From NCBI RefSeq assembly GCF_014352935.1, contig NZ_CP060694.1, positions 1,364,001 through 1,428,000 of the forward strand: a DNA stretch of 64,000 bases. The letters are read 5' to 3'. This DNA comes from Aliarcobacter cryaerophilus (GTDB taxonomy: Bacteria > Campylobacterota > Campylobacteria > Campylobacterales > Arcobacteraceae). The notes under the pieces are model-generated. The model saw nothing but the letters and a program-made list of their open reading frames with translations, was not told the DNA's origin and did not search any database. The stretch's first letter is position 1; every line of letters starts with the position of its first letter. Below, in pieces: positions 29,979 through 47,254 of the stretch. Made by a program: the position numbers and the translations under genes.

Positions 29979-29980
29979 AA

Positions 29981-31183: not shown

Positions 31184-31317
31184 TTTTAAAACTCCGATAT
31201 TATTATTTTATAGCTAGATTATACAATTTTAAAATAAAAAAATTGATGAAACAAGTTAAATATTGAATTTAGTAACCATTTGATTACAAAATTAAATCTA
31301 TTTTAATTTTATTCATA

Positions 31318-31323
31318 TACAAT
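31318..31323 (+). promoter_or_regulatory. Possible -10 box of the tmRNA gene
   Basis: TACAAT, within TATACAATACGG, lies 14 bases before the mature tmRNA 5' end; the primary transcript would need only slight trimming by RNase P. No convincing -35 box at the right distance, as is common in this phylum. Confidence 0.4.
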
Positions 31324-31337
31324 ACGGTTTTAAAATT

Positions 31338-31735: not shown

Positions 31736-31799
31736 TTATTACAAATACTTATAGTTTTATTATTTGTTTATCTTATAATTTATAGAAGATTTCAAAAAA

Positions 31800-32210: not shown

Positions 32211-32233
32211 ATTTTTTCTTGTATATAAAATTA

Positions 32234-33319
32234 TTAGCTTAGAAAATGATTTTTTATATCTTGTAAAAATCTAGCTTTATCAAAAGTTTTTGAGTGATGA
32301 ATTAATATCTCTGATGTTTTAGCTCTTGCTTTTGTTCCATTAGTAAATGAAGTTTTTACATTACCACATTGTGTAACTCTTTTATTATCATCACCAATAA
32401 CTAGTATCATACCTTTGCCATCATCATCAAGATAATCAATAACAGAATCTAGTTTATATACATAATCTTCACCTTGAACTGATTTTCTTAATTTACACTC
32501 AATTACGTGAAGATGATTATCTTTCATCATTAAAATATCAAATTCATTTTGTAAAGCTGGTGCAAACTCAACTTTTACATTAAACATTACATGATCAAAA
32601 TCAAAATTATCAGCAATTAGCCAATATATATACTCTTCAAATATAGTTCCTTGTATGAACATTCTATCGTTTAACTTATCAATTTTTTCAAGGTCTTTTT
32701 TTATTTCAGTATATCCATCTATTGAATCTAAAGTCTTATTTTGAAATAAAGCTGCAAATGTTTGATATTCTTCAAGATTTTTACAAATATTCATTACTAT
32801 ACTTTTTCTTGAATATGCTTCAACTTTATTACCCATAGATAAAAGGTTGTAGCCTTTAAGAATAAAGTGAGTTATGATATCTTTATTTTGAGAGATTTGT
32901 TTTTTTTGCATAGAGTTTTTTGTAACAATATTATATCCGTTATCAAAAATATCATATGCTATAAAATTTGCACCTTTTTCAAGTAATCTATCTGAAAGAA
33001 TTATAGTAGAAGATACTAATCCATCTGTTGCATTAAAATATATATTTTTAAAATCATTATTAGATATTTTAACTATCTCTTCAAAACAAGATATTATTGA
33101 ATCATAAGAGTCTTCATCAATTTTTATAGCATGTGTTTTAAAATTTAAATTATAAAATTCTTTAAATTTTTCTTGAGAATTCATAACTTTTTTTATCATA
33201 GTGGTTTCATATTTTGAATCATCATGAATTATTATATGTTTTTTAATTTTATCTTTAAATTCTACTAGTATTGGATAAATAGAAGAATCATGAATCCCAA
33301 GAAGTGAAATTAATATCAT
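32234..33319 (-). CDS. Card1/Can2-like CARF-PD-(D/E)XK nuclease (DUF1887)
   Basis: 361 residues. An N-terminal CARF-like Rossmann domain (MILISLLGIHDSSIYPILVEF, TIILSDRL, ANFIAYDIFDNGY), a middle winged-helix-like part, and a C-terminal restriction-type nuclease core: Glu in GTIFEEYIYWLIAD (about 223), Asp in ALQNEFDILMMK (about 260), and ECK in HLHVIECKLRK (about 273). This is the Card1/Can2 layout; those enzymes are switched on by cyclic oligoadenylate from type III CRISPR and cut nucleic acids. No cas gene is in the window, so its activator must come from elsewhere or be different. Catalytic residues appear intact. Confidence 0.78.
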   Translation of the reverse strand: MILISLLGIHDSSIYPILVEFKDKIKKHIIIHDDSKYETTMIKKVMNSQEKFKEFYNLNFKTHAIKIDEDSYDSIISCFEEIVKISNNDFKNIYFNATDGLVSSTIILSDRLLEKGANFIAYDIFDNGYNIVTKNSMQKKQISQNKDIITHFILKGYNLLSMGNKVEAYSRKSIVMNICKNLEEYQTFAALFQNKTLDSIDGYTEIKKDLEKIDKLNDRMFIQGTIFEEYIYWLIADNFDFDHVMFNVKVEFAPALQNEFDILMMKDNHLHVIECKLRKSVQGEDYVYKLDSVIDYLDDDGKGMILVIGDDNKRVTQCGNVKTSFTNGTKARAKTSEILIHHSKTFDKARFLQDIKNHFLS

Positions 33320-33394
33320 TGTGTTCCTTGTGTGTAGGTATTTAAAACAAAAGTGTATCTATTTTTAATTTATATTTATATTTTTAAATACATT

Positions 33395-33763
33395 TTAATG
33401 ATAATATTCATCATTGTTTCTAGAACTTCCAAAAAGTAAAAGAAGCAAAAGTAATCCAGCAAAAACTAAAATAAAAATAGCCCCCAATGCTACATTTAAA
33501 TCAGTTTTTGTTTTTATATATATAAAATTTCCTATCATAAGAATTAAAGAAAAAATAATAGCTAGATATAAATTAATTTCATTATGCTTAAAAAAGTAAT
33601 ATCCACAAATTATCAATATAAATGGAGTCATCATTATTCCAGCATTAAAAATATTTATAGGTCTATAATCATATTTTTCTTCACTATAATTATTTAGTTT
33701 CATTCCAAAAAATACAAGTCCAACTATAAATAATATTCCTATAAAAATTATTGTAATTTGCAT
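33395..33763 (-). CDS. Small four-helix membrane protein
   Basis: Not recognised. 122 residues with four hydrophobic segments (QITIIFIGILFIVGLVFFGM; GIMMTPFILIICGYYF; LAIIFSLILMIGNFIYI; ALGAIFILVFAGLLLLLLLF) and a short polar tail. AAGGGG precedes its ATG. It is one of a series of small envelope genes on the minus strand between the CARF nuclease and the WYL regulator. Confidence 0.65.
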   Translation of the reverse strand: MQITIIFIGILFIVGLVFFGMKLNNYSEEKYDYRPINIFNAGIMMTPFILIICGYYFFKHNEINLYLAIIFSLILMIGNFIYIKTKTDLNVALGAIFILVFAGLLLLLLLFGSSRNNDEYYH

Positions 33764-33800
33764 TTGTTTCCCCTTTTTAAGATATAAACATATAGTTTAA

Positions 33801-34145
33801 TTAGTATGAATTATTATCATTATCATAAGAAGTTTTATAATAATAATCATCATAAAAACTATTATTACTAGAGTCATTATTGTATGAACTATTGTAACTA
33901 TTATCAGCACTAGTATTATTATGTGATAAATCATTATGATTATCTTCAGCTCCACTTACACCATAAGGATTTCCATAAATATCTAAACAGCCTATCATTG
34001 GTGCACCATTAGCAGGATTAAAGTCTGTAGGAGCACAAAAATTATCTTCATCTTCTTCATGCTTTTTTAGATATTTATTTTCTTTACATGATAAAATAAA
34101 AAACAGTACGTAAATAATTGGTACAAATAAAAATAGAAGCTCCAT
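33801..34145 (-). CDS. Single-pass membrane protein with Asn/Ser/Asp-rich tail
   Basis: Not recognised. 114 residues: one N-terminal membrane helix (MELLFLFVPIIYVLFFIL), a middle stretch with PANGAPMIGCLDIYGNPYG, then a low-complexity tail of about 45 residues made almost only of Asn, Ser, Asp and Tyr. The tail is repetitive at DNA level too. AAAGG is present upstream. The tail is probably disordered; no function is suggested. Confidence 0.55.
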   Translation of the reverse strand: MELLFLFVPIIYVLFFILSCKENKYLKKHEEDEDNFCAPTDFNPANGAPMIGCLDIYGNPYGVSGAEDNHNDLSHNNTSADNSYNSSYNNDSSNNSFYDDYYYKTSYDNDNNSY

Positions 34146-34191
34146 TTTATATCCTTTAAAAAATCTACTGAGAAATATCTCAGTAGTAATA

Positions 34192-34587
34192 TTATCTAAC
34201 TAATCCACCCATAGTTTCACCTTCACTTGATGAAAAGCTATGTGTTTTTACAACATTTCCATCAAACAGTACTATTAATGTTTTTTTAGTATCATCTGTT
34301 CCTTTTACAAACAAATTTACAACAGGAACATAATTTACACCTTTTTGAACACTTCTTGAGTGATGATATTCCCATTTTTCTAAGCCATTATCCATAAAGC
34401 CAATATTTCTAGGCTCCCCAAATGCTTTTCTAACATCTGCTTTTGTTGATTTACCATCTTCTATCATACTCAAAATATTATCTTGAGTAACATTTTCGAT
34501 TCTATCATTTCCTGTTTTTACAGCACATCCTGTAAATAAAACTGTCCCTAACAATAAACTTGTTGTGATTAAACTAATTTTTCTCAT
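34192..34587 (-). CDS. BamE/SmpA-like lipoprotein
   Basis: 131 residues. The signal ends in LFTGC, so Cys21 would be lipidated. The mature part has the BamE/OmlA pattern: DNILSMIEDGKSTKADVRKAFGEPRNIGF, here seen as a helix-turn followed by GEP, then EKWEYHHS and a strand pair to ILIVLFDGNVV-like sequence (TLIVLFDGNVVKTH). Similar small domains occur in many envelope proteins, so a true BAM-complex role is not implied. Lies in the island, three genes downstream of the porin-like gene. Confidence 0.7.
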   Translation of the reverse strand: MRKISLITTSLLLGTVLFTGCAVKTGNDRIENVTQDNILSMIEDGKSTKADVRKAFGEPRNIGFMDNGLEKWEYHHSRSVQKGVNYVPVVNLFVKGTDDTKKTLIVLFDGNVVKTHSFSSSEGETMGGLVR

Positions 34588-34637
34588 TTTTTCCCTTTTA
34601 TTTTTAAATTTTCAATATAATTATATTTTTAATAATT

Positions 34638-34657
34638 GACAAAAATTGTCGTTTAAA
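34638..34657. promoter_or_regulatory. Inverted repeat and WYL-site-like half upstream of the lipoprotein
   Basis: GACAA-AAA-TTGTC (34638-34650) is a short perfect palindrome; next to it GTCGTTTAAA (34648-34657) matches nine of ten bases of one arm of the palindrome found before the WYL regulator. Could be a terminator of the small ORF or a second operator. Confidence 0.35.
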
Positions 34658-34778
34658 TAAATTTTAAATTTTTTCTAGAGTATATTTTTTTACTCTCTTT
34701 AACTCTAGTTATTGGTTTAAATCCCCAAACAACTCTTGTTTTAATACTACTTGTATCAATTGTTATTTTTGTTTTCAT
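34653..34778 (-). CDS. Small basic protein of 41 residues
   Basis: Too short for usual ORF cut-offs. ATG at 34778 with GGGAG six bases upstream, stop at 34653. The sequence is basic, MKTKITIDTSSIKTRVVWGF then KPITRVKESKKIYSRK, with a single tryptophan and a lysine/arginine tail. No similarity I can name with confidence. It lies 19 bases downstream of the porin-like gene, in the same direction, so it is likely co-transcribed. The well-placed ribosome site is the main support. Confidence 0.55.
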   Translation of the reverse strand: MKTKITIDTSSIKTRVVWGFKPITRVKESKKIYSRKNLKFI

Positions 34779-34797
34779 TTTAATCTCCCTATTTTAG

Positions 34798-35289
34798 TTA
34801 AAATGTATATTTTAGATTTAAATTAGCTTTTTCATAATCATAATCAAATCTTGAAGATGTCATATTGTAAATTTTATATTCAAAATTTAAAGCTATATTT
34901 TTTGTAATTCTATAATCAGCACCAGCTCCATAACCAAATCCTGCTCCATCTTTATTATCTATTCCTTGTAAAGCACCAGAACCTATTGTGTATAGAAACA
35001 AATCTTGATTAAAAATAGCATATCCTATTTTTAAATCACCAGATAATGTATAGACATCTATATTTTTACTATTTACATTTGGGTTACCATATGCAAAGTT
35101 TATTGATGTGCCAACAACAATATTTGAATCAAAGTATTTATTAAAACCATAGCCACCATTAAACTCTGTATATGATTCATCTAAAACTTTTGCGTTTGAA
35201 ACTCCAACATGAACATCTGAAACAAATTCAGCATATGCAACTGAAGACATAATTACTGAACTGATAAATATTTTTTTAAGATATTTCAT
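34798..35289 (-). CDS. Outer-membrane beta-barrel protein, small
   Basis: 163 residues. Signal peptide (KKIFISSVIMSSVAYA), then alternating strands with aromatic girdles (EFNGGYGFNKYFDSNIVVG, FGYGAGADYRITKNIALNFE) ending in a C-terminal Phe (LNLKYTF), the insertion signal for the BAM machinery. The size suits an eight-stranded OmpA/OmpX-type barrel. AAGGAGAAG precedes the ATG. Divergent from the WYL regulator across an intergenic region with a palindrome. May be surface-exposed; no ligand inferred. Confidence 0.75.
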   Translation of the reverse strand: MKYLKKIFISSVIMSSVAYAEFVSDVHVGVSNAKVLDESYTEFNGGYGFNKYFDSNIVVGTSINFAYGNPNVNSKNIDVYTLSGDLKIGYAIFNQDLFLYTIGSGALQGIDNKDGAGFGYGAGADYRITKNIALNFEYKIYNMTSSRFDYDYEKANLNLKYTF

Positions 35290-35331
35290 TCTTCTCCTTC
35301 TTGTGTTAATTTACGAAAGAATTATAAAATC

Positions 35332-35359
35332 TTTAAACGAATATATAAGTTCGTTTAAA
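35332..35359. promoter_or_regulatory. Palindrome between the divergent WYL and porin-like genes
   Basis: TTTAAACGAA, an eight-base spacer, then TTCGTTTAAA: a perfect ten-base inverted repeat in the 149-base divergent intergenic region. This is the place and form of an operator for a dimeric regulator, most likely the WYL protein encoded next to it. Confidence 0.6.
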
Positions 35360-35438
35360 AAAAATGATTAATTTAATAATTTATTTATATTAAAACGATA
35401 TATTTATCATCTTATTTTAAAATATATGGAATAGATAT

Positions 35439-36356
35439 ATGAAACATGATTACGATAGAACTGTCACAAGATTAATTACAATTCTTTCAAAATTTTCTCA
35501 CAATGAAATTGTAAATCCAAAAGATTTAGCAGAAGAGTTTAATGTAAGTGTTAGAACAATACAAAAAGATTTAAAAGAAAAGTTAATGCCAAATTTTCCT
35601 ATATATATGCACAAAAAAGGTGAATATAGATTAAGTGAAGGAGCTTCAATTACAAAATCTAATTTAACTAATGATGAAATGATTATATTATCTTTAGCTC
35701 TTTCAAAATTCAAAAATGTAAGTGATTTTGATATAACAACAGATAATCTTTTAAAAAAGCTTTTAAAACCAAATTTAAATAATCCTTATTTTATGAAATA
35801 TGAAGATATTGAAGATTTGGATATTGATTCAAAAATTGTACAAACTATTGAAGCTGCTATTGAGTATTCAAATATAATTGAAATAAATACAAAAAATGGT
35901 TCTAAAATAGTTGAAGCTTACAAAGTAGTGAATTATGGTGGAATATGGTATTTATTTGCAAGAGATACAAAAGATAGTAAAGTTAAAACATTTATGATAT
36001 CTAAAATAAAATCTGTAAATTTAACTTCAGAAAAATATACCTTTCCAAAACATGTAATTGAACAAATGCTTCAAAAGGCTCATTCTCCATATTATCAAGA
36101 TGGTAATACTTATAATGTAAAAGTAAAAGTTGATAGTGAGATTTCTCATTTTTTTGAACAAAAAGAGTTTTTACAATCACAAGAAATAGAAGATAAATTA
36201 GAAGATGGGAGTTTAATAATAAATTTTGAGATAAGTCATGATGAAGATATAGATAATATTATTAAATCTTGGCTACCACACATTGAAATAATTGAACCCA
36301 TTAGATTTAAAGAGAAATTGAAAAATGAATTGAAAGAGTATTTAAAAAGGATGTAA
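35439..36356 (+). CDS. WYL-domain transcriptional regulator
   Basis: 305 residues. N-terminal helix-turn-helix of the DeoR/HTH_11 type (LITILSKFSHNEIVNPKDLA, EEFNVSVRTIQKDLKEKL), then a WYL domain at about 140-215 (VVNYGGIWYLFARDTKDSKV with the variant W-Y-L reading IWYL) and the WCX C-terminal part to the end. WYL regulators often control phage-defence loci and may sense nucleic acid or nucleotide ligands. It precedes the large DUF4062-STAND gene by 69 bases in the same direction, and probably controls it and/or the divergent genes. Confidence 0.9.
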   Translation: MKHDYDRTVTRLITILSKFSHNEIVNPKDLAEEFNVSVRTIQKDLKEKLMPNFPIYMHKKGEYRLSEGASITKSNLTNDEMIILSLALSKFKNVSDFDITTDNLLKKLLKPNLNNPYFMKYEDIEDLDIDSKIVQTIEAAIEYSNIIEINTKNGSKIVEAYKVVNYGGIWYLFARDTKDSKVKTFMISKIKSVNLTSEKYTFPKHVIEQMLQKAHSPYYQDGNTYNVKVKVDSEISHFFEQKEFLQSQEIEDKLEDGSLIINFEISHDEDIDNIIKSWLPHIEIIEPIRFKEKLKNELKEYLKRM

Positions 36357-36425
36357 ATTATTTTATACACTGATTTAAAGATATTTTGTTAAAAATTAAA
36401 AGTTATACTTAAAAGGGTTGAATAT

Positions 36426-39400
36426 ATGAATCAAGGGAAAACATTTAGATTATTTATAAGTTCTACATTTAGTGATTTCTCAGTTGAGAGACGACTACTA
36501 CAGGAATATGTATTTCCAGAAATTAAAAAATATTGCAATGAAAGTAATTTAAATTTTCAACCTATAGATTTGAGATGGGGAGTTTCAAACGAAGCTCAAC
36601 TTGATCAAAAAACTCTTGAACTTTGTTTAGAAGAAGTAAGAGAATCTAAAATAAATCCTCATCCAAACTTTTTAATTATGGCAGGAGATAGATATGGTTG
36701 GATACCTCTTCCATATCTAATTGAAAGATCAGAATATGAAGCAATTGTAACTAATATTGAAAAAGAAGAAGATAAAGAACTTTTAAATATTTGGTATAAA
36801 CTGGATGAAAATCAAATACCTGCTTCTTATATTTTATGTGAAAGAAAAAATGAATTTGTAGAGTACTTAAATTGGGAAAAAGTAGAAAATCAATTAAGAG
36901 ATATTTTACAAAGTTCTGTAAACAAAACTTCATTATCAAAAAATGATAAAGAAAAATATTTTATGAGTGCAACTGAACATGAAGTTATAGAAGGAATATT
37001 TAAATATTTAAATACTACACCTTTTCAGGAAAGTATTTTACAACAAAATAAGACTTTATTACAGATTGATTCAGAAAATGTATATGCCTACATAAGAAAT
37101 ATAAAATCAATAGATGAATCATATAAAAACAACTTTATAGATAAAGATTTAAAAAATGTAAATAAATTTAAAAAATGTATAAAAGAATCTATAGATAATA
37201 ACAATATTTTAGAAGTTGATATAGAGTTAGAAAATATTTCTAAAGATAATATGAATGGAAGCTTATTATATAGCTATGAAACCATTAAAAATGATCAAAA
37301 ATCAATTTTTGTTGAAATAATGATCAATAATTTAAAAAAATCAATAAATTTATATAAAAATTCAATTAAAAAATTTTCTGAAGATGAACTTGAAGTTTTT
37401 GAACAAAAAAGTTTTAAAGAATTAAAGATGAAAAACTTTTTAGGAAGAGAAGAATCTTTACAAACTATTGATAAATATATAAATGACAATAACAATGAAG
37501 CACTTGTAGTTTATGGTAAAAGTGGACTTGGAAAATCTTCACTTATGGCTAAAGCTATAGATAATGCACAAAATAAGTATTTAAATAAAAAAATTGTTTA
37601 TAGATTTGTTGGTTCAACTGTAAATCTTACAACAACTTCGGAAATATTAATTTCAATTTTAAAAGAACTTGGAATTACAGAAGAGATAAGAAAAATTAAA
37701 AATTCTAAAAATTTACAAGAAGAGAATGAAGAAATTAAGGAGTTCTACTATAGAGTTTATGATCACTTAAAATCTATTAAAGAAGATACTATTATTTTTA
37801 TAGATGCAATTGATCAGTTAATAAATGAAGATGAATTTCTTTGGCTTCCAAAAAAGTTACCAAATAATTTAAAAATTGTAATTTCAGCTTTAAAAGATGA
37901 CAATTATAAAGAAGATAGTAAATATTTAGAAGATATTAACAAAGTAACCAAAAATACTTATGAATTAAAAGCATTTGATTTAAATAATGCAAAAGAACTT
38001 GTTATAAATTTACTAGAAAAATACAATAGAAAAATATCACAAGAACAGATGAATTATGTGCTTGATATTTATAAAAATATAAACTCTCCTTTATATCTAG
38101 TTGTTGCTATTCAAGATTTAAAAGATTGGAAATCAACAGATAAAAATAAAACTTTAGCAAAAACACAAAAAGATGAGATTAAATGTTTTATAAATAATTT
38201 ATCAAATATTCATCATCATAATAAAGAGTTTGTAAAAAGAGTGTTTGCTTATATTTCATTAACTGGCGGATTAAGTGAGAATGAATTATTAGAGTTATTA
38301 TCAAGCGATAAAGAATTTTTAAATACAATAGCCCCTGAAACATTTCATACGAACACTACAAAAGAACTACCTATTGTAATTTGGTCAAGATTGCATACTC
38401 ATATCAAAGAATTTTTAAAACTGGAAAATGTAGATAACCAAAATGTTATGAAATTTTTTCATAGAGAGTTTGATAATATTTCGGAACTTACTAAAGATGA
38501 ATATGAACACTTAATTGAACTTCTACAAAACTTAATGTTTAAATATCAAAATGAAGATTTCTATTCAAATAGATGGGGGAAATTATATATAGAGGTACTC
38601 AAAAAATATTACATAAAGTATAACATTTATAAATTTAAATATGATTCAAATACAAAAAATTACAGTTACTGTAAAAAAATAGTAATGAATTTAAGTAATG
38701 AAAATTATATTATTAAATTATTGGAATTTCTTAATGATATTGGGATGAGATTTAATGAATTAAACAAAAGTATCACATCTTATTATTTTGAAAGTTTATA
38801 TTTTGTATCAAAACTTTTATACAATCAAAATTCTAATAAATGGGTAACAAAATTAATAACAAGTGTATTTACTTTATCAATATTTTTACGAAATAATTTT
38901 AAAACAAATGAATCAATAAAGTTACAATTTGAAATTATAGAAATTTTAAAAAATTTATATAAAAAAAATCCAACTAAATGGAATAATTTTTATATTACAT
39001 GTTTAACAAATCAAGCTGCTTTTTTGAGAAATACTGGTAATAAAATTGAATCAATAAAATTTAACAAAGAAGCTTTAAGTATTACAAAATGCCTATATGA
39101 AAGTGATACAGACATATGGTGTTATCACTATACAACTATATTAAATAATTTAGCTATGTCACTAAAAGATGTTGGTCATGTCAGTGAAGCTATAGAATTA
39201 GAGAGAGAAGCTTTATGCATAAGAAAACCTCTACATGAAAATGATCCAATTAGTTGGAATAAAGAGTATACAATTAGTTTATCAAATTTAGCAACTTCAT
39301 TAAAAAACAATGGTCAAGTTGAAGAAGCTATTGAATTGGAAATAGAAGCTTTAAGAATAAGAAAATCTATGTATATAAATGACCCAGATATATATGTTGA

Positions 39401-40214
39401 AAATTATATTTCTAGTTTAATTAATTTAGGAACTTCATTTTATAAATATAATAAAATTGAAGAAACTTTAGAATATTGTAAAGAAGCTTATGAAATTACT
39501 AAGCCACTCTATGAATCTAATCAAAATAAATGGTCTGATTTATTTACAAAAAGTTTATCAAGTTTTGGAACTTCATTAGAAAGCATTGGCAAAATTGATG
39601 AAGCTATTAAATTACAAAAAAAAGCTTTGGAAATAAGAAAATCATTATATGAAAATGATTCAAATATTTGGTCTAATGTTTATATTAAAAGTTTAATTTC
39701 CATATCACTCTCTTTAAAAAATTTTGGAGATATAATACAAGCTAAGATATTTCAAGAAGAAGCTTTATTTATAGTAGAACATTTGTATAAAAAAGATTCA
39801 AATATATGGATTGATAAATATTTACAATGTTTAATTAATTTATCTTCTTATTACAATCAGTTGGAAAAAACTACAGATTCTATAAATATGTTAAAAAAGG
39901 CTTTAAACATATTAAGACCTTTAAATAAAGAAAAATCAAATATTTTTGTCAAAGATTATTTGATAGTTTTGACTAATATAAGTAATTATTTATATAAAAT
40001 AGGTAAAGTTAATCAGGCTATACAATATTATAAGGAAGCAATAACAATAATTGAACCTTTATATTTTAAAAATTTTTTTGACTATAATAAGATATATATA
40101 AATATTTTAAATGGTTTAAGTTATTGCTATACAGATTTAAAAAAATATAAAGAAGCAAAATTATACAAAAGAAAATCAGCAAATATTATGAAAAATCTTG
40201 AAGATAAAGAATAA
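36426..40214 (+). CDS. DUF4062-STAND NTPase-TPR protein
   Basis: 1262 residues, a candidate immune sensor. DUF4062 domain at about 1-105 (FRLFISSTFSDFSVERRLLQ, PIDLRWGVS, IMAGDRYGWIPLP); a linker; a STAND/NACHT-type NTPase with Walker A YGKSGLGKSS near 363-373 and Walker B IIFIDAIDQL near 456; a helical middle; then about nine TPR-like repeats of roughly 48 residues from about 835 to 1250 (LSNLATSLKNNGQVEEAIEL, LNNLAMSLKDVGHVSEAIEL). The same domain order occurs in eukaryotic NPHP3/TEP1/NWD1-like proteins and in bacterial defence NTPases. AAGGG precedes the ATG. Nucleotide-dependent activation is inferred. Confidence 0.88.
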   Translation: MNQGKTFRLFISSTFSDFSVERRLLQEYVFPEIKKYCNESNLNFQPIDLRWGVSNEAQLDQKTLELCLEEVRESKINPHPNFLIMAGDRYGWIPLPYLIERSEYEAIVTNIEKEEDKELLNIWYKLDENQIPASYILCERKNEFVEYLNWEKVENQLRDILQSSVNKTSLSKNDKEKYFMSATEHEVIEGIFKYLNTTPFQESILQQNKTLLQIDSENVYAYIRNIKSIDESYKNNFIDKDLKNVNKFKKCIKESIDNNNILEVDIELENISKDNMNGSLLYSYETIKNDQKSIFVEIMINNLKKSINLYKNSIKKFSEDELEVFEQKSFKELKMKNFLGREESLQTIDKYINDNNNEALVVYGKSGLGKSSLMAKAIDNAQNKYLNKKIVYRFVGSTVNLTTTSEILISILKELGITEEIRKIKNSKNLQEENEEIKEFYYRVYDHLKSIKEDTIIFIDAIDQLINEDEFLWLPKKLPNNLKIVISALKDDNYKEDSKYLEDINKVTKNTYELKAFDLNNAKELVINLLEKYNRKISQEQMNYVLDIYKNINSPLYLVVAIQDLKDWKSTDKNKTLAKTQKDEIKCFINNLSNIHHHNKEFVKRVFAYISLTGGLSENELLELLSSDKEFLNTIAPETFHTNTTKELPIVIWSRLHTHIKEFLKLENVDNQNVMKFFHREFDNISELTKDEYEHLIELLQNLMFKYQNEDFYSNRWGKLYIEVLKKYYIKYNIYKFKYDSNTKNYSYCKKIVMNLSNENYIIKLLEFLNDIGMRFNELNKSITSYYFESLYFVSKLLYNQNSNKWVTKLITSVFTLSIFLRNNFKTNESIKLQFEIIEILKNLYKKNPTKWNNFYITCLTNQAAFLRNTGNKIESIKFNKEALSITKCLYESDTDIWCYHYTTILNNLAMSLKDVGHVSEAIELEREALCIRKPLHENDPISWNKEYTISLSNLATSLKNNGQVEEAIELEIEALRIRKSMYINDPDIYVENYISSLINLGTSFYKYNKIEETLEYCKEAYEITKPLYESNQNKWSDLFTKSLSSFGTSLESIGKIDEAIKLQKKALEIRKSLYENDSNIWSNVYIKSLISISLSLKNFGDIIQAKIFQEEALFIVEHLYKKDSNIWIDKYLQCLINLSSYYNQLEKTTDSINMLKKALNILRPLNKEKSNIFVKDYLIVLTNISNYLYKIGKVNQAIQYYKEAITIIEPLYFKNFFDYNKIYINILNGLSYCYTDLKKYKEAKLYKRKSANIMKNLEDKE

Positions 40215-40229
40215 TATTAATAATCACGA

Positions 40230-40260
40230 AACAATAAATAATGGTTTATTACTTATTGTT
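40230..40260. terminator. Convergent terminator-like hairpin
   Basis: AACAATAAATAAT and ATTACTTATTGTT pair over 13 positions with one mismatch around a five-base loop. It lies 16 bases after the STAND gene stop on the plus strand, and on the minus strand seven bases after the end of the -1-frame extension (40267) rather than at the annotated 0-frame stop (40545), which supports the longer product being the real one. Confidence 0.6.
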
Positions 40261-40266
40261 CGATAG

Positions 40267-40551
40267 TTAAATATATGCTTGTACTCTTGATAAGATAATC
40301 TTATTTTTTAATTTATTTTTTACTTTTCCTAAAAAAGAATATTTTATATTATTTTCTTCATCAAAAATCTTTTCTATTTCATACTCTGATAAGAAATCTT
40401 CTAAAATCTCTATTTCAAAATCAGATTCTAATTTTTTACTGAACTTATGAACTCTAATTATTGAACCTGCTCTAGCTTTATTTAAGGATTTAAAAGGAAT
40501 AAATTTTGCTTCAGATAAAGTTAAAGATTTCGATTCAAATATTTCTATAGC
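40267..40551 (-). CDS. -1-frame C-terminal extension of the DUF4062-TPR protein
   Basis: An open frame of 94 codons that begins exactly at the A_AAA_AAG heptamer and ends 7 bases before a hairpin. It contains no ATG, GTG or TTG, so it cannot be translated on its own by a normal start. Composition is protein-like (for example AKFIPFKSLNKARAGSIIRV, then EDFLSEYEIEKIFDEE). Read through a -1 shift it makes a fusion of about 728 residues with the upstream 635-residue protein. The alternatives are a sequencing error in the A6 run or a true frameshift mutation. Confidence 0.6.
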   Translation of the reverse strand, partial: AIEIFESKSLTLSEAKFIPFKSLNKARAGSIIRVHKFSKKLESDFEIEILEDFLSEYEIEKIFDEENNIKYSFLGKVKNKLKNKIILSRVQAYI

Positions 40552-42452
40552 TTTTTTATATTTTTTATATTTATTTTATATTCATCAATTTTATGGTTTA
40601 TAGATTTTAGAGTTAAATTAAATTGATTCTCATAATTTTTTTCTTTGCTTAATTTATCACTCAAAAATCTTTCTTCTTCATCCAAAAATGAATTATTAAT
40701 TTCTTGTATCTCTAAATTTTTATTTTTAAATATTTTCTTGACTTGTCTTGAAAAGTAATAAATAGCAGAAGTTGTAAGTATACTTGAAATAAAAGTAAAT
40801 ATAAATAAATTATAATTATTTTTATAAAATAATATTGATAAAAGTACGAGTGTACCCAGTACAAAAAACATATTATTTCTCTTAGTTATTGAAATAAAAG
40901 TATCATTTTTAGCTTTTTTATCAATAATTTCAATCTTATTAATTTTATCTTTTTCTAATTTATATATAGATTCATCAAAAGAAATTTTTAGCTTTTTATA
41001 TTTTTCATTTAATTCATTTTCTAAAAATATTTTTTCAGATTCAAACTTATCTATACTATCATTTGATAATATTTTTAAATTATTACTAATGATTTTATAT
41101 TGACTAAGTATCCCTCTTCTAGCATTTTGCCATAATTCTGTAATTGAATTTTGAGAAATATTAAAATTATATATTGGCATATTGAATATCTCTCTAATAT
41201 TATTTGTATTATATAAAATAGCATCTGTAGTTTTATATAATTTAGCTTTCATTTCTTTAAAATACTCATCAATTTCATTTTTATATGGAATGAAAAAAGG
41301 ATCTGAATTTATTTGTTCCAAAAAATCCATTTTTATTTTTAAACATTCATCTATTGCCTGTTTAGCCTCTACATTTTCATTAAAAGAAAATAAAAATTTT
41401 GCTTTTTCATAATATACTTTAGCAAAATTTTTTGTCAATTCCTCAGCAAGTTTTATATATTTCTCACCTTCATGTTTTTTGTCAGAAAATATAGAAGCTT
41501 GAACAATAAGTAAATAACAATGAGAAGCTCTAAAAATATTATTATTTTTTTCAGCAATTTTAGCAGCTCTTAAAAGATATTCTTCTATTTCAAAAAATAA
41601 ACTTTTTTTAGCACTTGTAATATATAATTTAGCTAACCAATAATTTGTTTCAAAATCCAATGGTTTGAGATCTAATGCTTTTTTTAAGTGTTTTATTGCA
41701 GTAGAATAATCTCTAATGTCTATTGCATATTGAGCTTCTTGTTTTTGTTCGATTGCAGCTAATTTATTGGGAATTTTTAATAATTCAAAACCTTCAATTT
41801 TATCATTATTATCAATAATTAAATTAATTTCTTCATCTTCTTGATATTGGTTATCTAATAAAATACTATCACTATCTTCTAATAAGAATTCATCATCAAC
41901 ATTATTTTCAATAATTTCTAAATCTACTGTATTTAAATTTAAATCTTTGTTATTAATTAAATTTAATTCATATAGAGAGGTTAATAAATCAACAGAAATT
42001 TTTTCTGCTATATCTTTTACATTATCTGTATCTTCAAATTTTTTAATTCTATGGTTTCTTTCAAGTTCTCTTTGCCAATTTGACATATTGATATCATCTG
42101 AATATTCAATAATACTTTTATAACTTTTTCCAATACAAAAAACTAAAACTCTAGTATTCGAGTTATCTTTTATAGCTTCTTTGTATTCTAAATGTGTATA
42201 AGATAATTCTTCCCCATCAGGTATAGTTCCATATGATTCACCAACTAATAGTATCATAACCTCTGATTTTTTTGCATAAAAAAGTGATTCAGCCAAAGGA
42301 GATCTTGTCGATGCTTCATTGTTATTTAAATCAATAGCTTTCATAAATTTGTATTGATTTATTTTTTCTCTTAATATTCCACGTAACTCTTTAAATTCTT
42401 CAAATCTTGAAGCTAAAAATATTTCATAATGACTATTTTGTGTTTCTAACAA
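40545..42452 (-). CDS. DUF4062-TPR membrane protein (0-frame product)
   Basis: 635 residues. DUF4062-like domain at about 1-150 (YEIFLASRFEEFKELRGIL, VMILLVGESYGTIPDGEE, LEYKEAI); an acidic linker; TPR-like helices from about 240 to 357 (IDIRDYSTAIKHLKKALDL); a long coiled coil; two membrane helices near 524-565 (FFVLGTLVLLSILFY, FISSILTTSAIYYF) and a further coiled coil. The start is TTG 42452, with AGGA eight bases upstream. The gene lies 18 bases after the RyR gene. The 0-frame stop is four bases after a slippery heptamer, see the extension entry. Confidence 0.8.
   Translation of the reverse strand: MLETQNSHYEIFLASRFEEFKELRGILREKINQYKFMKAIDLNNNEASTRSPLAESLFYAKKSEVMILLVGESYGTIPDGEELSYTHLEYKEAIKDNSNTRVLVFCIGKSYKSIIEYSDDINMSNWQRELERNHRIKKFEDTDNVKDIAEKISVDLLTSLYELNLINNKDLNLNTVDLEIIENNVDDEFLLEDSDSILLDNQYQEDEEINLIIDNNDKIEGFELLKIPNKLAAIEQKQEAQYAIDIRDYSTAIKHLKKALDLKPLDFETNYWLAKLYITSAKKSLFFEIEEYLLRAAKIAEKNNNIFRASHCYLLIVQASIFSDKKHEGEKYIKLAEELTKNFAKVYYEKAKFLFSFNENVEAKQAIDECLKIKMDFLEQINSDPFFIPYKNEIDEYFKEMKAKLYKTTDAILYNTNNIREIFNMPIYNFNISQNSITELWQNARRGILSQYKIISNNLKILSNDSIDKFESEKIFLENELNEKYKKLKISFDESIYKLEKDKINKIEIIDKKAKNDTFISITKRNNMFFVLGTLVLLSILFYKNNYNLFIFTFISSILTTSAIYYFSRQVKKIFKNKNLEIQEINNSFLDEEERFLSDKLSKEKNYENQFNLTLKSINHKIDEYKINIKNIKKL
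40551..40557 (-). promoter_or_regulatory. A_AAA_AAG slippery heptamer
   Basis: Read on the minus strand, in frame with the DUF4062-TPR gene, the codons are ATA-AAA-AAG-CTA-TAG. This is the same heptamer as in E. coli dnaX. A -1 shift leads directly into the 94-codon extension. I see no strong stem-loop after it and no Shine-Dalgarno-like booster before it, though the region is very AT-rich. Confidence 0.55.
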
Positions 42453-42470
42453 TTTAATTTTCCTAAGTTA

Positions 42471-44057
42471 TTATTTAAATTTTATTAATTTTTTTACTAT
42501 GCAGCTAGATAATAATATAATAAATGTTTTTAACCATTCATATTTAGTTATCTTTTTTACTTTCTTTTTATTATACTTATAGTCAATAATCATATCAATA
42601 TTTTTAACCATAGCTCTATCTTTTGCTTTATTGCTTTCATCTAAATTATCATATGGTACAAGACAGTGATGTAATTTTATTTTTGGATTTCTTTTTTTAG
42701 CATATTTCCATCCATTTAAATAATGAAAAGCACTCCATCTATTATGTTCACATCTAGCTAATTTTTCTATAGATAAATCACTATTATCAATCTTTAAATA
42801 TTTTTGTTTTATTTTTATATGATCAGCAGAAGCTCTATTAGACTCTTTTTCAAAATAGCTTCTTTCTTCCCAAGGTTTTTGCTTACTTGGTGATGCGTTT
42901 TCATTATATATATTATTTGTTGCTTTTGCTCTAATATCTCTTATTTCATCTATTAAATACTCTTTTGTACAAATATCTCTTGTTAGTCCAAAAGTAAAGA
43001 AATTTTCAAATGAATTTTGATTTGTTTTTATACAATTACTAATATTATATTCATTAAAAATTGCCAATATAATATTTGTTTTTAATTCTTTTTTTTCTAT
43101 TTCTTTAAGATAAGTAATATTTGAAAGATTTGCTGCAATTTCAAGATTAGTTTCTTCATTTTCATAACAAACAAATATATTTGTTAAATTCATATCATAC
43201 CAAAAATCTTTCATATATGATAATTTTGAATCGATATCAAATTTTATATATTTAATTTCTATATTCGAAATGCTATTTATCTCTGTATAATTTAATTCTA
43301 CTTTTTGTTGAAATTTTTTTGGATTTTTATCTAGACAATATATGGTTAATTTATTTTCGTTTGGTAATTGTCCCATTATACAAGCTTGAAATATTACTTC
43401 ATGTGCTAGATTAGTATTTCCTAAAATAACAATTGAGTAATCTTCATTAGATGAAATTATTTTATCATTTTCTCCATCAATATCATATTTTTTAAATAGT
43501 TCTCTTGAAGCATCTTCATAATATGAAAAAATTTTAATATTTTTACCTTCAAGTAATCCATTATCCTTATGAAAATATCTTAAGTTTCTATTTTCAATCT
43601 GTACATGAATATTTACATTTTTGTTTATAGCTAGTATATGGCTTACTATTTCTATATTATCAAGATCTTTACCTGATGAAACTATTATATGTTTTTTCTT
43701 TTCTAAATTTAATTTTATTAATGTTTCATGATTTTTTGGATTAGCAATTAATACACTTACATTATTTGCTTTCATATATTCACTAATATACAAATTTTCT
43801 TTATTTTGTTCTACTATTATTATTTTACTATTTAACTCTAGTTCACTATCAATATAAGTACGATTTTTATCACAAAGCCCTATTACAATAATTACATTTG
43901 AACTAAAATATTTATTATAAATAAAAAATTTAATTGAATTCCACCAATGAAATAATTTAAAACCACCATATATGATTACTAATAAAGAAATACCTGTAGC
44001 TATAGCATCAATTACTTTCCAAAATTCACTATTAACAATTTCAATTAAATAGTACAT
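42471..44057 (-). CDS. Membrane-anchored TrkA-N/RyR-domain protein
   Basis: 528 residues. N-terminal membrane helix at about 18-42; two Rossmann-like TrkA-N (RCK-type) units at about 54-175 (SSNVIIVIGLCDKNRTYIDS) and 208-330 (YSIVILGNTNLAHEVIFQAC); a C-terminal RyR-type domain at about 432-490 (LARCEHNRWSAFHYLNGWKY, with HCLVPYDNL) and a hydrophobic tail near the end. RyR domains in bacteria are proposed to bind nucleotide-derived signals in conflict systems. There is no channel domain attached. AAGGA stands about ten bases before the ATG. Likely one transcript with the DUF4062-TPR gene. Confidence 0.82.
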   Translation of the reverse strand: MYYLIEIVNSEFWKVIDAIATGISLLVIIYGGFKLFHWWNSIKFFIYNKYFSSNVIIVIGLCDKNRTYIDSELELNSKIIIVEQNKENLYISEYMKANNVSVLIANPKNHETLIKLNLEKKKHIIVSSGKDLDNIEIVSHILAINKNVNIHVQIENRNLRYFHKDNGLLEGKNIKIFSYYEDASRELFKKYDIDGENDKIISSNEDYSIVILGNTNLAHEVIFQACIMGQLPNENKLTIYCLDKNPKKFQQKVELNYTEINSISNIEIKYIKFDIDSKLSYMKDFWYDMNLTNIFVCYENEETNLEIAANLSNITYLKEIEKKELKTNIILAIFNEYNISNCIKTNQNSFENFFTFGLTRDICTKEYLIDEIRDIRAKATNNIYNENASPSKQKPWEERSYFEKESNRASADHIKIKQKYLKIDNSDLSIEKLARCEHNRWSAFHYLNGWKYAKKRNPKIKLHHCLVPYDNLDESNKAKDRAMVKNIDMIIDYKYNKKKVKKITKYEWLKTFIILLSSCIVKKLIKFK

Positions 44058-44370
44058 TTATTAATATTCCTTAATATAAAAATCATTACAAAATTTATTT
44101 ATTCTATAAAATTAAAATTTATGAAATCAATTTAAAAAACAGTGTTTATAATAAAATGATAAGTATCCATAATACTTTTTAAATAATATCGGAATATTAT
44201 ATCTAACATATACAAATTTTAATAAATAAACAGAACATAAAATTTTTAATTTTATTTATTTTTAAATAAATGTTACCACATGAAATAATTGATTCATTAT
44301 CTATATAAAAATAATAACTAGAAAAAATAGATAAAATTTATTTAATCCATTAAAATAACAATTTATATAG

Positions 44371-44472
44371 AATGGATATTGTGTTAATAATGATTTATTA
44401 AGAAATAGTTAAACTCCAATTCCTAATTGGCATTGTAATGGATATGGTGTTAATAATGATTTATTAAGGAAT
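44371..44472 (+). repeat. Two 36-base direct repeats spaced 30 bases apart
   Basis: Copy 1 at 44371-44406 and copy 2 at 44437-44472 differ at two of 36 positions. Each contains TTAATAA-TGAT-TTATTAA, a perfect stem-loop; the 30-base spacer holds CCAATT-CCT-AATTGG. The geometry equals a one-spacer CRISPR, but in one reading frame both copies read NGY(C/G)VNNDLLRN, with one change silent, which also fits a duplicated fragment of a lost gene. No cas gene is near. Confidence 0.55.
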
Positions 44473-44659
44473 GAGATAAAAAATATTATCTAATATTTGA
44501 TAATTTATTATAATATTCAAAAGCTCGGAAAATGCCAAATAATTGAATCTACGTGACCAAAATACTAGTTTTTTAGTTTTTGTTACTCGTTTTGTTCTTT
44601 AAATATGTTAATAGTTTTAAAGCTCTACAATACAATACTTTTAAGAATTTATTCGCAGT

Positions 44660-44674
44660 CGCACATCTCCACCA
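44660..44674 (+). repeat. Island attachment repeat, right copy
   Basis: Exact copy of the last 15 bases of tmRNA (31721-31735), including the CCA. Upstream of it the sequence no longer forms a tmRNA, so this is the displaced 3' fragment that marks the island's far end. Ordinary chromosomal genes resume 35 bases later. Confidence 0.8.
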
Positions 44675-44708
44675 ATTCTATAGTTTCATATCATATAATA
44701 TTAAAAAA

Positions 44709-45467
44709 CTAAATTTCTCCTCTTAAATACGAATATAAAAGACCTAAATACTCATGAAATGCTAACTCAACTTTTTTTATATTTGTTCCACTAAAATATG
44801 ATGATGGATATGTACTTGTAAAGTATTTATGATTTGTTGGACTTTCTATAATATCTAAACCCTCTTTTTTAAATAACATTGATGCTCTTTTCATATGGCT
44901 TGCAGTTGTTACAAGAATTAGTTTTTTTCCATCTACTATTTTTTTACTCTCTATTGCCTCTTCTTTTGTATCTTTTGGAGTATCAAGAGTAATAATATCC
45001 GCTTCACTAACACCTAAAGATATAGCCAATCTTTTTTGCATTTGAGCATGAGAGTTTGGGTCATCAAAACTATATCCACTAACTATAAGTTTTATATTTG
45101 ATTCATTATTTTTTAAATTTTTATAATGTCTTATACCTTCTATTAATCTATTTATAGCTGTAGTATTTAACTCAGATGTAATAGCAAAATTTTCATTTGT
45201 TTTATGACCATTTCCCAAAACTAAAATATACTCTATATCTTTTGGTGTATCTTTTAAAGATTGATGAGCATTTTCAAGTGGAGATATTATCATATTTGAT
45301 ATAGTTTGATTTGATATTAATGCAAACCACAAAAAACTCAAAAATAAAAATATTTTTGCTTTTTTATAAGAGTTTTTTAGTAAAAAAACTAAAGCCAAAA
45401 GCAATAAGAAAAGTCCTATTGGTACAGGCATTAAAAAAGCTGCGATAATTTTTTTTAACACAAACAT
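44709..45467 (-). CDS. YdcF/SanA-like DUF218 membrane protein
   Basis: 252 residues. Two N-terminal hydrophobic segments, then a DUF218 domain: DIEYILVLGNGHKTNENFAI, INRLIEGIRHY, KLIVSGYSFDDPNSHAQM, and LILVTTASHMKRASMLFKKE. This family (E. coli ElyC/YdcF type) is linked to envelope polysaccharide metabolism, but substrate and reaction are unknown. AGGAG stands just before its ATG. It follows the MEMO-like gene directly, one base apart. Confidence 0.88.
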   Translation of the reverse strand: MFVLKKIIAAFLMPVPIGLFLLLLALVFLLKNSYKKAKIFLFLSFLWFALISNQTISNMIISPLENAHQSLKDTPKDIEYILVLGNGHKTNENFAITSELNTTAINRLIEGIRHYKNLKNNESNIKLIVSGYSFDDPNSHAQMQKRLAISLGVSEADIITLDTPKDTKEEAIESKKIVDGKKLILVTTASHMKRASMLFKKEGLDIIESPTNHKYFTSTYPSSYFSGTNIKKVELAFHEYLGLLYSYLRGEI

Positions 45468-46253
45468 CTATTCTCCTATTACTGCTGATGTATATCCAAC
45501 AACTCGTGTTTTATCATTTGAAATATCAGCACTTGTGCAATAATGCAAAAGTTTTGTTTGAAGATTATTTTTAATTGAATATTCAATAATAGCTTCTAAT
45601 CCAACTTTACCACAAGCCTCACAATTTTCAAAAGCTTTTAAATCTTTATTTGTTATTGCATTTAAACAAATTAAATCTAGTTTCATAGCATCTTGTTGTG
45701 AATAAAAATGGCTTAAATCACTACTTACAACCAAAAGTGTATCTTTTGATTTTAAAATATAATCAAACACTTTTTCTAAACTAAAATAATCAATATCACC
45801 ATAAACAATCTCAACAAAATCGATATTCTCAAAATAGTATTTTATAAAAGGAGCTTGAACTTCTGTTGAGTGTTCAAAGCTACACTCATCTTGAAAACTT
45901 AGAAAGTCAAATTTGTTTAATAACTCTTTTGAATATTCTAAATCTATTTTTAAATTTCCAAAAGGAGTTTCATATTCATTATAAAAACATACACTAGCTC
46001 CACTAAACCAAAATTTATGATACGGTCCTACTACAACAACTCTTTTGTAATTATTTAAACTAGCTATTTTATAAGCTTTATTTGCTGTAAATCCACTATA
46101 AATATATCCAGCATGAGGAACAATAATTGCATTTATATTTTTAAAACTATTTTTATCATCTTTAGTTTTATTAAATTTTTCAAAATAATCCAATAACTCT
46201 TTTTTATTATCTGGATAAAAACTACCACTTACAACAGATTTTCTTACACTCAT
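45468..46253 (-). CDS. MEMO1-family protein (AmmeMemoRadiSam system protein B)
   Basis: 261 residues. The family is a dioxygenase-like fold with conserved histidines: IIVPHAGYIYSGFTANKAY, VVVGPYHKFWFSGAS, and VVSSDLSHFYSQ. In bacteria it is usually encoded with AMMECR1 and a radical SAM enzyme; here only AMMECR1 is adjacent (four-base ATGA-type overlap). The radical SAM partner must be elsewhere or absent. Function of the set is unknown. Confidence 0.92.
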   Translation of the reverse strand: MSVRKSVVSGSFYPDNKKELLDYFEKFNKTKDDKNSFKNINAIIVPHAGYIYSGFTANKAYKIASLNNYKRVVVVGPYHKFWFSGASVCFYNEYETPFGNLKIDLEYSKELLNKFDFLSFQDECSFEHSTEVQAPFIKYYFENIDFVEIVYGDIDYFSLEKVFDYILKSKDTLLVVSSDLSHFYSQQDAMKLDLICLNAITNKDLKAFENCEACGKVGLEAIIEYSIKNNLQTKLLHYCTSADISNDKTRVVGYTSAVIGE

Positions 46254-46792
46254 TTTATTTTCTCTACCTCATATTTATATACTTTTGGTTTAAAATTATC
46301 ATCTACTTCAAATCCACCTTTATAGCATAAATGAGCAAAAAAATCATCAAAATTTGGTAGCATATCCCAAACTTGTGGTAAAAAAGTACTTCTTTTTCCA
46401 TCTTGCTCAATAATAACGCCATCTATATATGGTCTTATTTTTGATTTTAAATCTTCAAAATCTTTGTACTCTACTATAATAGGAGGTGTTAAAATAGATA
46501 TTTCAATCTCTATTTTCTTAAACTCTTCAAAACTTAACTCTAAAAATCTTGGATCCTCAAAAGCTGCCATATATGCATTATTTACTAAATCATCAAATAA
46601 AGTTCTATTTGCTTCTAAACTTCCTATACAACCTCTTAACTCTTTATTTAAAGTAAGAGTTACAAAGCTTGCCCTCTTCTCATCTAAAAAGTTATTATTT
46701 TTCAAAAATTCATTTTTATCAATATTTATTTTATTATTAAATTTTCTCTCTATTGATTTTTTTGCTATATTTATTAATATATCTTTATCCAT
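46250..46792 (-). CDS. AMMECR1-domain protein (AmmeMemoRadiSam system protein A)
   Basis: 180 residues with the AMMECR1 signature LNKELRGCIGSLEANRTLF and the conserved PRFLELSFEEFKKIEIEISI. I chose the ATG at 46792, with GGAG six bases upstream; an upstream TTG at 46804 has no ribosome site. Translation is coupled to the MEMO-like gene by overlap. Divergent from the denitrification cluster, with the FNR-type box between them, so it may be influenced by the same regulator. Confidence 0.92.
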   Translation of the reverse strand: MDKDILINIAKKSIERKFNNKINIDKNEFLKNNNFLDEKRASFVTLTLNKELRGCIGSLEANRTLFDDLVNNAYMAAFEDPRFLELSFEEFKKIEIEISILTPPIIVEYKDFEDLKSKIRPYIDGVIIEQDGKRSTFLPQVWDMLPNFDDFFAHLCYKGGFEVDDNFKPKVYKYEVEKIK

Positions 46793-46843
46793 TGTAATCT
46801 CCAATTGTTTTATAAAACAATTACAATTTTAGTATAAATATGA

Positions 46844-46857
46844 TTGATTATAATCAA
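46844..46857 (+). promoter_or_regulatory. FNR/CRP-family box upstream of nor-nir
   Basis: TTGAT-TATA-ATCAA, a perfect FNR consensus site with one further symmetrical base pair on each side. Its centre (46850.5) lies 41-42 bases before the start site predicted from the -10 box at 46880-46885, the class II activator position. Suggests switching on of the cluster when oxygen is low or nitric oxide appears. Confidence 0.8.
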
Positions 46858-46879
46858 TAGAGCAATATTTTTTCTCATA

Positions 46880-46885
46880 TATAAT
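46880..46885 (+). promoter_or_regulatory. -10 box of the nor-nir transcript
   Basis: TATAAT within CATATATAATGC, 29 bases after the centre of the FNR box; a start near 46892 would leave a leader of about 33 bases to the first ATG. No -35 box, as expected for an activator-dependent promoter. Confidence 0.7.
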
Positions 46886-46924
46886 GCATTTAGATAAAAA
46901 TATTTGAAGTAATAGGAGTAGAAA

Positions 46925-47254
46925 ATGTTAGGTGAAGTAGTTAGGAATAGACCTGAAATTGCCTTGGATGATTTTTTACCTATATTTTTATCATCGTCTT
47001 TAGTACTTGTTTTTGGTGCTTTGTTTGTGGGTATTTATACTTTAGTAAAAATGGGTTATTTAAAAAAGTTTTATATGCCTTTTGCATATCTTTTTTGGAT
47101 ACTTCAAGCTTACTGTATGTATTTTATGGCTACAAGACTTCAAGTAGGAGATTTTGTTGGGAAAGTTTTATTTATCACTATGATAGCTTATCTTACTTTA
47201 CCTCATCTTTATTACTATTTGAACAGCAAAGCAGAAGAAGAGTATGAAAATTAA
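46925..47254 (+). CDS. Small membrane protein preceding norC
   Basis: 109 residues with three to four membrane helices (FLSSSLVLVFGALFVGIYTL, MPFAYLFWILQAYCMYFMAT, VLFITMIAYLTLPHLYYYL). GGAG precedes the ATG, and it lies directly after the FNR-type promoter and 21 bases before norC, so it is the first gene of the nitric oxide reductase unit. It is not NorE or NorF by any motif I can name. A role in assembling or stabilising cNOR is inferred from position only. Confidence 0.8.
   Translation: MLGEVVRNRPEIALDDFLPIFLSSSLVLVFGALFVGIYTLVKMGYLKKFYMPFAYLFWILQAYCMYFMATRLQVGDFVGKVLFITMIAYLTLPHLYYYLNSKAEEEYEN

Follow-up and report, generated by a model that had tools for sequence, protein, structure and literature searches.

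A mobile DUF4062-STAND and TrkA-RyR locus in Aliarcobacter cryaerophilus, a possible NAD-based anti-phage module

The subject of this work is a group of three genes found in a stretch of 64,000 nucleotides of Aliarcobacter cryaerophilus (NCBI RefSeq assembly GCF_014352935.1, contig NZ_CP060694.1, positions 1,364,001 to 1,428,000), which will be referred to as the window and whose own numbering is used below. Two of these genes code for proteins with a DUF4062 domain and the third for a membrane protein containing TrkA-N and RyR domains (TrkA-RyR). The genes of this locus are as follows.

36426–40214, forward strand: DUF4062-STAND(NACHT/NPHP3_N)-TPR gene, 1262 amino acids; putative sensor and TIR-like NADase
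42471–44057, reverse strand: gene for a transmembrane (TM) segment, a tandem RCK/TrkA-N gating ring and an RyR domain, 528 amino acids; first in its operon, putative receiver/effector
40545–42452, reverse strand: DUF4062-TPR-TM gene, 635 amino acids; second in the operon
35439–36356, forward strand: WYL/WCX gene for a transcription regulator that may act on the STAND gene
40267–40544, reverse strand: leftover C-terminal region of DUF4062-TPR in another frame, 3' of a poly-A run; its end is taken from the alignment with plasmid CP146529.1

The initial annotation of this DNA had reported the three genes, their coordinates and their domains, all of which were borne out by open reading frame and domain searches, and its description of a STAND gene facing a two-gene unit was also confirmed. 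The two genes of the unit are present on one strand and separated by 18 bp, with the TrkA-RyR gene first, and this operon is convergent with the STAND gene, directly upstream of which the WYL/WCX gene is located. The STAND protein matched DUF4062 (E 7e-9), a NACHT/NPHP3_N/nSTAND NTPase, many TPRs and, weakly, HTH_NWD1, and its NTPase motifs are intact (Walker A GKSGLGKS at 364 and Walker B IIFIDAID at 456). The TrkA-RyR protein matched TrkA_N (8.5e-8) and RyR (1.6e-11) and has a single N-terminal TM stretch (residues 11–36), and the DUF4062-TPR protein contains DUF4062 (5e-14), TPR and a C-terminal TM region. No other DUF4062 gene is present in this 2.02-Mb, one-contig genome. The DUF4062-TPR frame ends about 93 codons short in comparison to a 99%-identical plasmid copy (CP146529.1) that is intact and in frame, because of a one-base difference in the length of a poly-A run, and a different frame still codes for the lost tail, as far as about 40267. 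The point where the frame leaves that of the plasmid copy, by one base, is a poly-A followed by G (A AAA AAG; about 40550–40560), and the difference could be an assembly error, phase variation, transcriptional slippage or a -1 frameshift site.

The DUF4062 domain has been identified as a TIR-like NADase in a preprint of May 2026, in which a one-gene DUF4062 defence system was named Swarozyc; its representative KpSwz is anti-phage, has the portal protein as its trigger and depends on E97, and the NADase of human TEP1 requires E1008 (PMC13174449). The two DUF4062 domains of the window score 36.2 and 52.6 bits against a curated PF13271 cut-off of 24.7, and that of the STAND protein aligns with the solved TIR domain of human TEP1, 11gz (E 1e-12; profile 1.7e-21). 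When the deposited KpSwz chain, which is the E97A mutant, was compared with a relative (L084), the mutated position corresponded to the Glu of SFTQKEY, and the counterpart of this Glu in the DUF4062-TPR protein of the window is, by alignment, Glu89 (SYTHLEY). In the STAND protein, the S-x-T-x-x-E motif is represented by SATEHEV with Glu186, and it is kept in the STAND relatives. The TEP1 residue was located by number offset, without a printed alignment, and it is less certain than the KpSwz position. Due to the presence of a Glu at the KpSwz E97 position in both domains, both enzymes look intact, with Glu89 and Glu186 as their predicted catalytic residues; judged from sequence, hydrolysis of nicotinamide adenine dinucleotide (NAD+) is a putative activity of both proteins. 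In the AlphaFold model of the DUF4062-TPR protein (mean predicted local distance difference test (pLDDT) 70.6), residues 9–167 form strands and helices in the order E-H-E-H-E-H-E-H-E-H, which agrees with a five-strand, five-helix TIR-like fold and places Glu89 in the third helix; structure searches with this model returned TPR proteins only.

The RyR domain has likewise been studied recently. According to another preprint of May 2026, phage RyR (R12) proteins bind the 2' and 3' forms of cyclic ADP-ribose (2'cADPR and 3'cADPR), and one of them, RyDEP, for which H75, W78, H100 and D117 are ligand contacts, also hydrolyses both forms, which most phage homologs with the conserved residues did not (PMC13232231). 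The window RyR domain scores 44.7 bits against a PF02026 cut-off of 27.4. Its residues H438, W441 and H463 show the same spacing as H75/W78/H100 of RyDEP and are invariant in all aligned homologs that cover the region (42/42), and D480 is found at the spacing of D117 (+42). By its residues, this domain would form a complete pocket for an ADP-ribose-type ligand, and ligand binding is predicted. The AlphaFold model of the TrkA-RyR protein (pLDDT 84.7; predicted template modelling score 0.83) had as its best Foldseek matches the RCK gating rings of TrkA, CASTOR, DMI1, GsuK (including ADP- and NAD-bound entries) and BK Slo1; as the TM-scores are about 0.4, these matches indicate a fold class and not a close likeness. 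As modelled, the TrkA part folds as a tandem RCK Rossmann gating ring. In four clostridial relatives, a TVGYGD potassium filter, seen only there, is present ahead of the same RyR domain (L052:3880-5316, L053:88-1611, L054:3334-4896 and L058:8885-10480). These clostridial genes occur in tandem with a second TrkA-RyR gene, and a TIR gene adjoins three of the four.

A genome-wide scan identified 36 TrkA-RyR loci in Campylobacterota, Gammaproteobacteria, Bacteroidota, Bacillota and other groups. A DUF4062-STAND neighbour is present at nine of these (L030, L035, L037, L039, L041, L042, L043, L044 and L051), and at five of the nine (L030, L037, L041, L043 and L051) the TrkA-RyR gene precedes the DUF4062 gene, overlapping it or less than 15 bp away from it, an order that is the same as in the window operon. 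At about 11 other loci the neighbour is a TIR protein (TIR-STAND-WD40, TIR-WD40, TIR-NB-ARC-TPR or TIR alone), two of these assignments (L047 and L049) being based upon genome search or sequence reading, and some of the TIR partners are of the ThsB_TIR type. Within 5 kb of the TrkA-RyR genes in the 34 searchable genomes, DUF4062 was observed 9 times versus 0.09 expected, and TIR 10 times versus 0.21 expected. When 397 high-quality genomes of the class were surveyed independently, TrkA-RyR was found in 11 (7 of 68 when counted by genus) and DUF4062 in 23. DUF4062-STAND was carried by 9 of the 11 TrkA-RyR genomes versus 2 of the 386 others (Fisher P 5e-15, a value that overstates independence because some of the surveyed species are related), and in eight of the nine genomes carrying both, the two genes are no more than about 5 kb apart. 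TrkA-RyR is absent from all 12 genomes whose DUF4062 proteins are small ones only. Two TrkA-RyR genomes lack DUF4062, and in one of them (G026) the TrkA-RyR gene is broken. DUF4062-STAND is present without TrkA-RyR in genomes G096 and G241, and at a separate locus from it in G034. The Pfam RyR model alone misses divergent TrkA-RyR partners.

The neighbourhood of DUF4062-STAND and TrkA-RyR is therefore far above chance and their genetic coupling is real, the recurrent unit being DUF4062-STAND (or TIR) together with TrkA-RyR. The initial annotation had linked the two convergent units through their proximity and shared DUF4062 domain and had looked to co-occurrence across genomes. This link holds for the STAND gene and TrkA-RyR, as seen from the genomes that carry both, but it does not extend to the DUF4062-TPR-TM gene, which is paired with TrkA-RyR only in the window and on one Arcobacter plasmid, where a remnant of the STAND gene is present. 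Because the TIR and DUF4062 partners are interchangeable, it is suggested that TrkA-RyR depends upon what enzymes of the TIR superfamily do to NAD+.

Several other genes were observed in or near such clusters. In the same-genus genome G096, the DUF4062-STAND gene that lacks TrkA-RyR adjoins a TIR (ThsB_TIR-like) gene (L096:5063-10457). SLOG-like accessory genes are present in L024, L034, L047, L097 and L100, identified by a Pfam match for L097 only and by sequence likeness for the rest. A large AAA+/peptidase M41 protein recurs in the DUF4062/TrkA-RyR clusters of Campylobacterota (L024:961-4239 and L026:9470-12247 by Pfam; L098:15074-17851 and L102:2246-4990 by sequence likeness), which suggests an accessory protease. 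The TrkA-RyR gene of genome G116 is located near a protein whose start resembles a caspase-like peptidase (L104:3666-5831).

The three genes are part of a mobile island, whose boundaries are as follows.

31338–31735: ssrA (tmRNA gene)
31721–31735, forward strand: attL-like 15-bp core CGCACATCTCCACCA, the final bases of ssrA, matching 44660–44674
31736–44674: mobile island of 12,939 bp at the 3' end of ssrA, with an empty site in genome G198
44660–44674, forward strand: attR-like 15-bp core CGCACATCTCCACCA

In the same-genus genome G198 (L076), window positions 29802–31746 and 44660–47042 are joined contiguously, and the core, which is present at each window junction, occurs once (L076:1919-1933). 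In view of the contiguous flanks and the single core, the region 31736–44674 is an insertion at the 3' end of ssrA. Its GC content is 22% versus 28–29% in the flanks, and no integrase gene is present inside the 12,939 bp. A DNA search for the operon in 31 genomes of the same genus yielded, apart from its own genome, nothing but short AT-rich matches, and the operon is thus absent from them; the viral contigs searched contained no relatives of TrkA-RyR or of DUF4062-TPR.

The island is composite, as its left and right parts match different Arcobacter plasmids. The right part (39768–44066) is present on the 121-kb plasmid p121_Kiel_2759, next to a tyrosine recombinase and type I restriction genes. 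In the block on this plasmid, the STAND gene is reduced to its final 148 residues, the DUF4062-TPR gene is 99% identical to that of the window and TrkA-RyR is split; the STAND remnant beside the pair implies that all three genes were formerly linked there too. The left part (31770–36344), extending from a Card1-like CARF nuclease to the WYL regulator, is found with 93.5% identity on 83-kb Arcobacter plasmids, where it adjoins a type III-B CRISPR locus without DUF4062 genes. The nuclease is of the Card1/Can2-like CARF-PDDEXK type (32234–33319), and between it and the WYL gene (33395–35289) there are small membrane proteins, a BamE-like lipoprotein and an outer-membrane beta-barrel, which are kept with both on the plasmids. 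An explanation of the island as a CRISPR system was dropped, as no Cmr2-type Cas10 was detected in the genome (one model searched) and the block with the Card1-like gene also moves separately. A Card1-like CARF gene of a Sulfurovum genome, with 47% identity to that of the window, is located directly upstream of a split TrkA-RyR gene and of a SLOG-like gene (L034:318-3595), so that the CARF and RyR parts of the island come together again elsewhere. Further along in the window, a radical-SAM protein (54019–55140) matches the PADLOC viperin models (E 2e-23); it is probably a core MoaA-type enzyme and not a defence gene.

The features for which there is direct support are the intact predicted NADase residues, the full set of RyR ligand residues, the gating-ring fold, the genetic coupling and the mobility. 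Our preferred reading, to which we give about an even chance, is that the locus is a mobile anti-phage module of a Thoeris-like kind, triggered by STAND, in which the product of the NADase acts on a gating-ring effector. The initial annotation had proposed an undescribed conflict module, and the above-chance neighbourhood, the mobile island and the plasmid block beside restriction-modification genes lend good support to this, but DUF4062 is no longer a domain of unknown function, as it is now a TIR-like NADase (PMC13174449). The signal, the gating and the anti-phage activity are what we infer for such a module, in which the TPR/STAND part would sense infection and the NADase domains would cluster, turning NAD+ into ADP-ribose or a cyclic derivative of it. 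This product would be bound by the RyR domain, by the Rossmann pockets of the RCK or by both, or else they would feel the change in NAD+ and ADP-ribose, and the gating ring would alter either the passage of ions through the membrane or the state of a partner channel; this change together with the loss of NAD+ would stop growth or kill the cell ahead of phage release.

A number of observations weigh against this reading. The DUF4062 enzymes that have been tested yield linear ADP-ribose, which is the only derivative obtained with TEP1, and human NWD1, NWD2 and NPHP3, which also have the DUF4062-NACHT layout, are inactive (PMC13174449); hence, no cyclic signal is established for the DUF4062 family. 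A pore filter is missing from the window TrkA-RyR protein, which has a single TM helix, and also from most of its homologs, which have two. About 16 of the 36 TrkA-RyR loci have no TIR or DUF4062 neighbour, several of them because the contig ends. In a mirror-tree test on 15 STAND/TrkA-RyR pairs the distances were uncorrelated (r -0.03), which indicates that the partners have been exchanged, and co-inheritance is not claimed. Lastly, the DUF4062-TPR frame is shortened in the window and the TrkA-RyR gene of the plasmid is split.

In the main rival to an executor role, TrkA-RyR would restrict or eliminate the product. The DUF4062 proteins would then be self-sufficient Swarozyc-like killers that deplete NAD+, and TrkA-RyR a guard or off-switch that binds or hydrolyses ADP-ribose-type products against leaky activity, as RyDEP does. 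That KpSwz acts alone (PMC13174449), that the His and Asp through which RyDEP cleaves its ligands are both present in the window RyR domain (H438 and D480), and that DUF4062-STAND is without TrkA-RyR in two genomes and at a different locus in a third, are all in accordance with this. However, a sponge or hydrolase would need no membrane anchor, full RCK gating ring or clostridial potassium-channel pore, and cleavage of the signals was not seen with most phage RyDEP homologs in which the residues are conserved (PMC13232231); we consider this role rather unlikely. A similarly low probability is assigned to the two convergent units being independent systems in one defence island, viz. a WYL-regulated STAND-DUF4062 and a separate TrkA-RyR/DUF4062-TPR system. 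Besides their convergent orientation, this would account for the WYL gene travelling with the Card1 block on plasmid p82 without either unit, and for the TrkA-RyR/DUF4062-TPR pair being a tight operon by itself; against it speak the relatives of the window DUF4062-STAND, with which TrkA-RyR is usually partnered directly in other genomes, and the p121 block, where the STAND end is kept in the same place beside the pair. A housekeeping or stress role as an NAD-responsive regulator of potassium transport of the TrkA/GsuK kind, without a function in defence, agrees with the RCK gating-ring fold and the TrkA_N domain, but it is very improbable given the patchy distribution (11/397 genomes), the location on a mobile island and a plasmid, and the pairing with TIR and STAND proteins.

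The proposed action of an NAD-derived signal on a channel-like protein would parallel the presumed effect of cyclic ADP-ribose on the ryanodine receptors of animals, including our own. Two recent preprints provide the halves of this idea separately, one of them dealing with the TIR-like NADase DUF4062 of bacteria and TEP1, and the other with phages, in which the RyR domain binds or hydrolyses cyclic ADP-ribose immune signals. The window locus and its relatives unite both halves in bacterial gene pairs, with a gating ring of the ion-channel type placed between RyR and the membrane. Because these pairs join the predicted NADase and the RyR domain, the disputed direct action of cyclic ADP-ribose on a ryanodine-receptor domain becomes testable in a small bacterial protein. 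The locus and its relatives also suggest that phage RyR proteins mimic a host receptor, and NAD-based immunity would gain a membrane gating-ring receiver. It is tentatively possible that these genes represent an undescribed and widespread immune family, in which an ADP-ribose-type signal, produced by a TIR-like NADase upon triggering by STAND, gates a membrane channel by way of the RyR domain; this would be a bacterial counterpart, and perhaps a forerunner, of the control of animal ryanodine receptors by cyclic ADP-ribose and of DUF4062-NACHT proteins such as TEP1.

In a literature search of partial coverage, no description was found of Thoeris or TIR systems joined with an RyR effector, nor of this gene pair, and an earlier mention may exist; Burroughs and colleagues, writing in Nucleic Acids Research in 2015, reportedly may have mentioned bacterial RyR domains near TIR/SLOG genes. 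In a PADLOC search, TrkA-RyR and DUF4062-TPR had no match and the STAND protein had only a weak match to mad8, in its STAND part. With phage RyDEP and R12/RyR proteins (PMC13232231), the window protein shares the PF02026 domain and the same ligand residues at the same spacing; however, RyDEP, a small and free protein of phages, eliminates the signal, whereas the window domain is the end of a host membrane protein coupled to an enzyme gene. GsuK, TrkA and BK Slo1 similarly have a tandem RCK Rossmann fold after a membrane segment, and GsuK structures hold ADP or NAD, but in the window protein an RyR domain is added at the end and there is no second TM helix or pore filter. The STAND protein resembles vertebrate TEP1/NWD1 in having DUF4062 followed by a NACHT/STAND NTPase and then repeats, with the match to the TEP1 TIR domain (11gz) and a weak NWD1-type winged helix, but its repeats are TPR and not WD40 and its partner gene is the bacterial TrkA-RyR. 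Swarozyc (KpSwz; PMC13174449; PDB 10wc/11cq/11cv) has in common with the locus the DUF4062 TIR-like domain, the catalytic Glu in S-x-T-x-x-E and its presence on mobile DNA; KpSwz, however, is a single chain of 326 amino acids with a portal-binding auxiliary domain, in contrast to the multi-gene arrangement of a 1262-residue STAND-TPR and a 635-residue TPR-TM protein linked to a membrane RCK-RyR gene. As in Thoeris, a TIR-superfamily enzyme, here a putative NAD consumer, is encoded beside a protein with a domain for an ADP-ribose-type ligand, but no match to ThsA/ThsB or TIR was found in the window proteins, the enzyme being DUF4062 and the receiver an RyR-tipped RCK gating ring in the membrane, in place of the TIR ThsB and nucleotide-gated effector of Thoeris. 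The locus is thus neither Swarozyc nor, by its proteins, Thoeris, and it resembles a TIR-signal-effector system with a new class of receiver.

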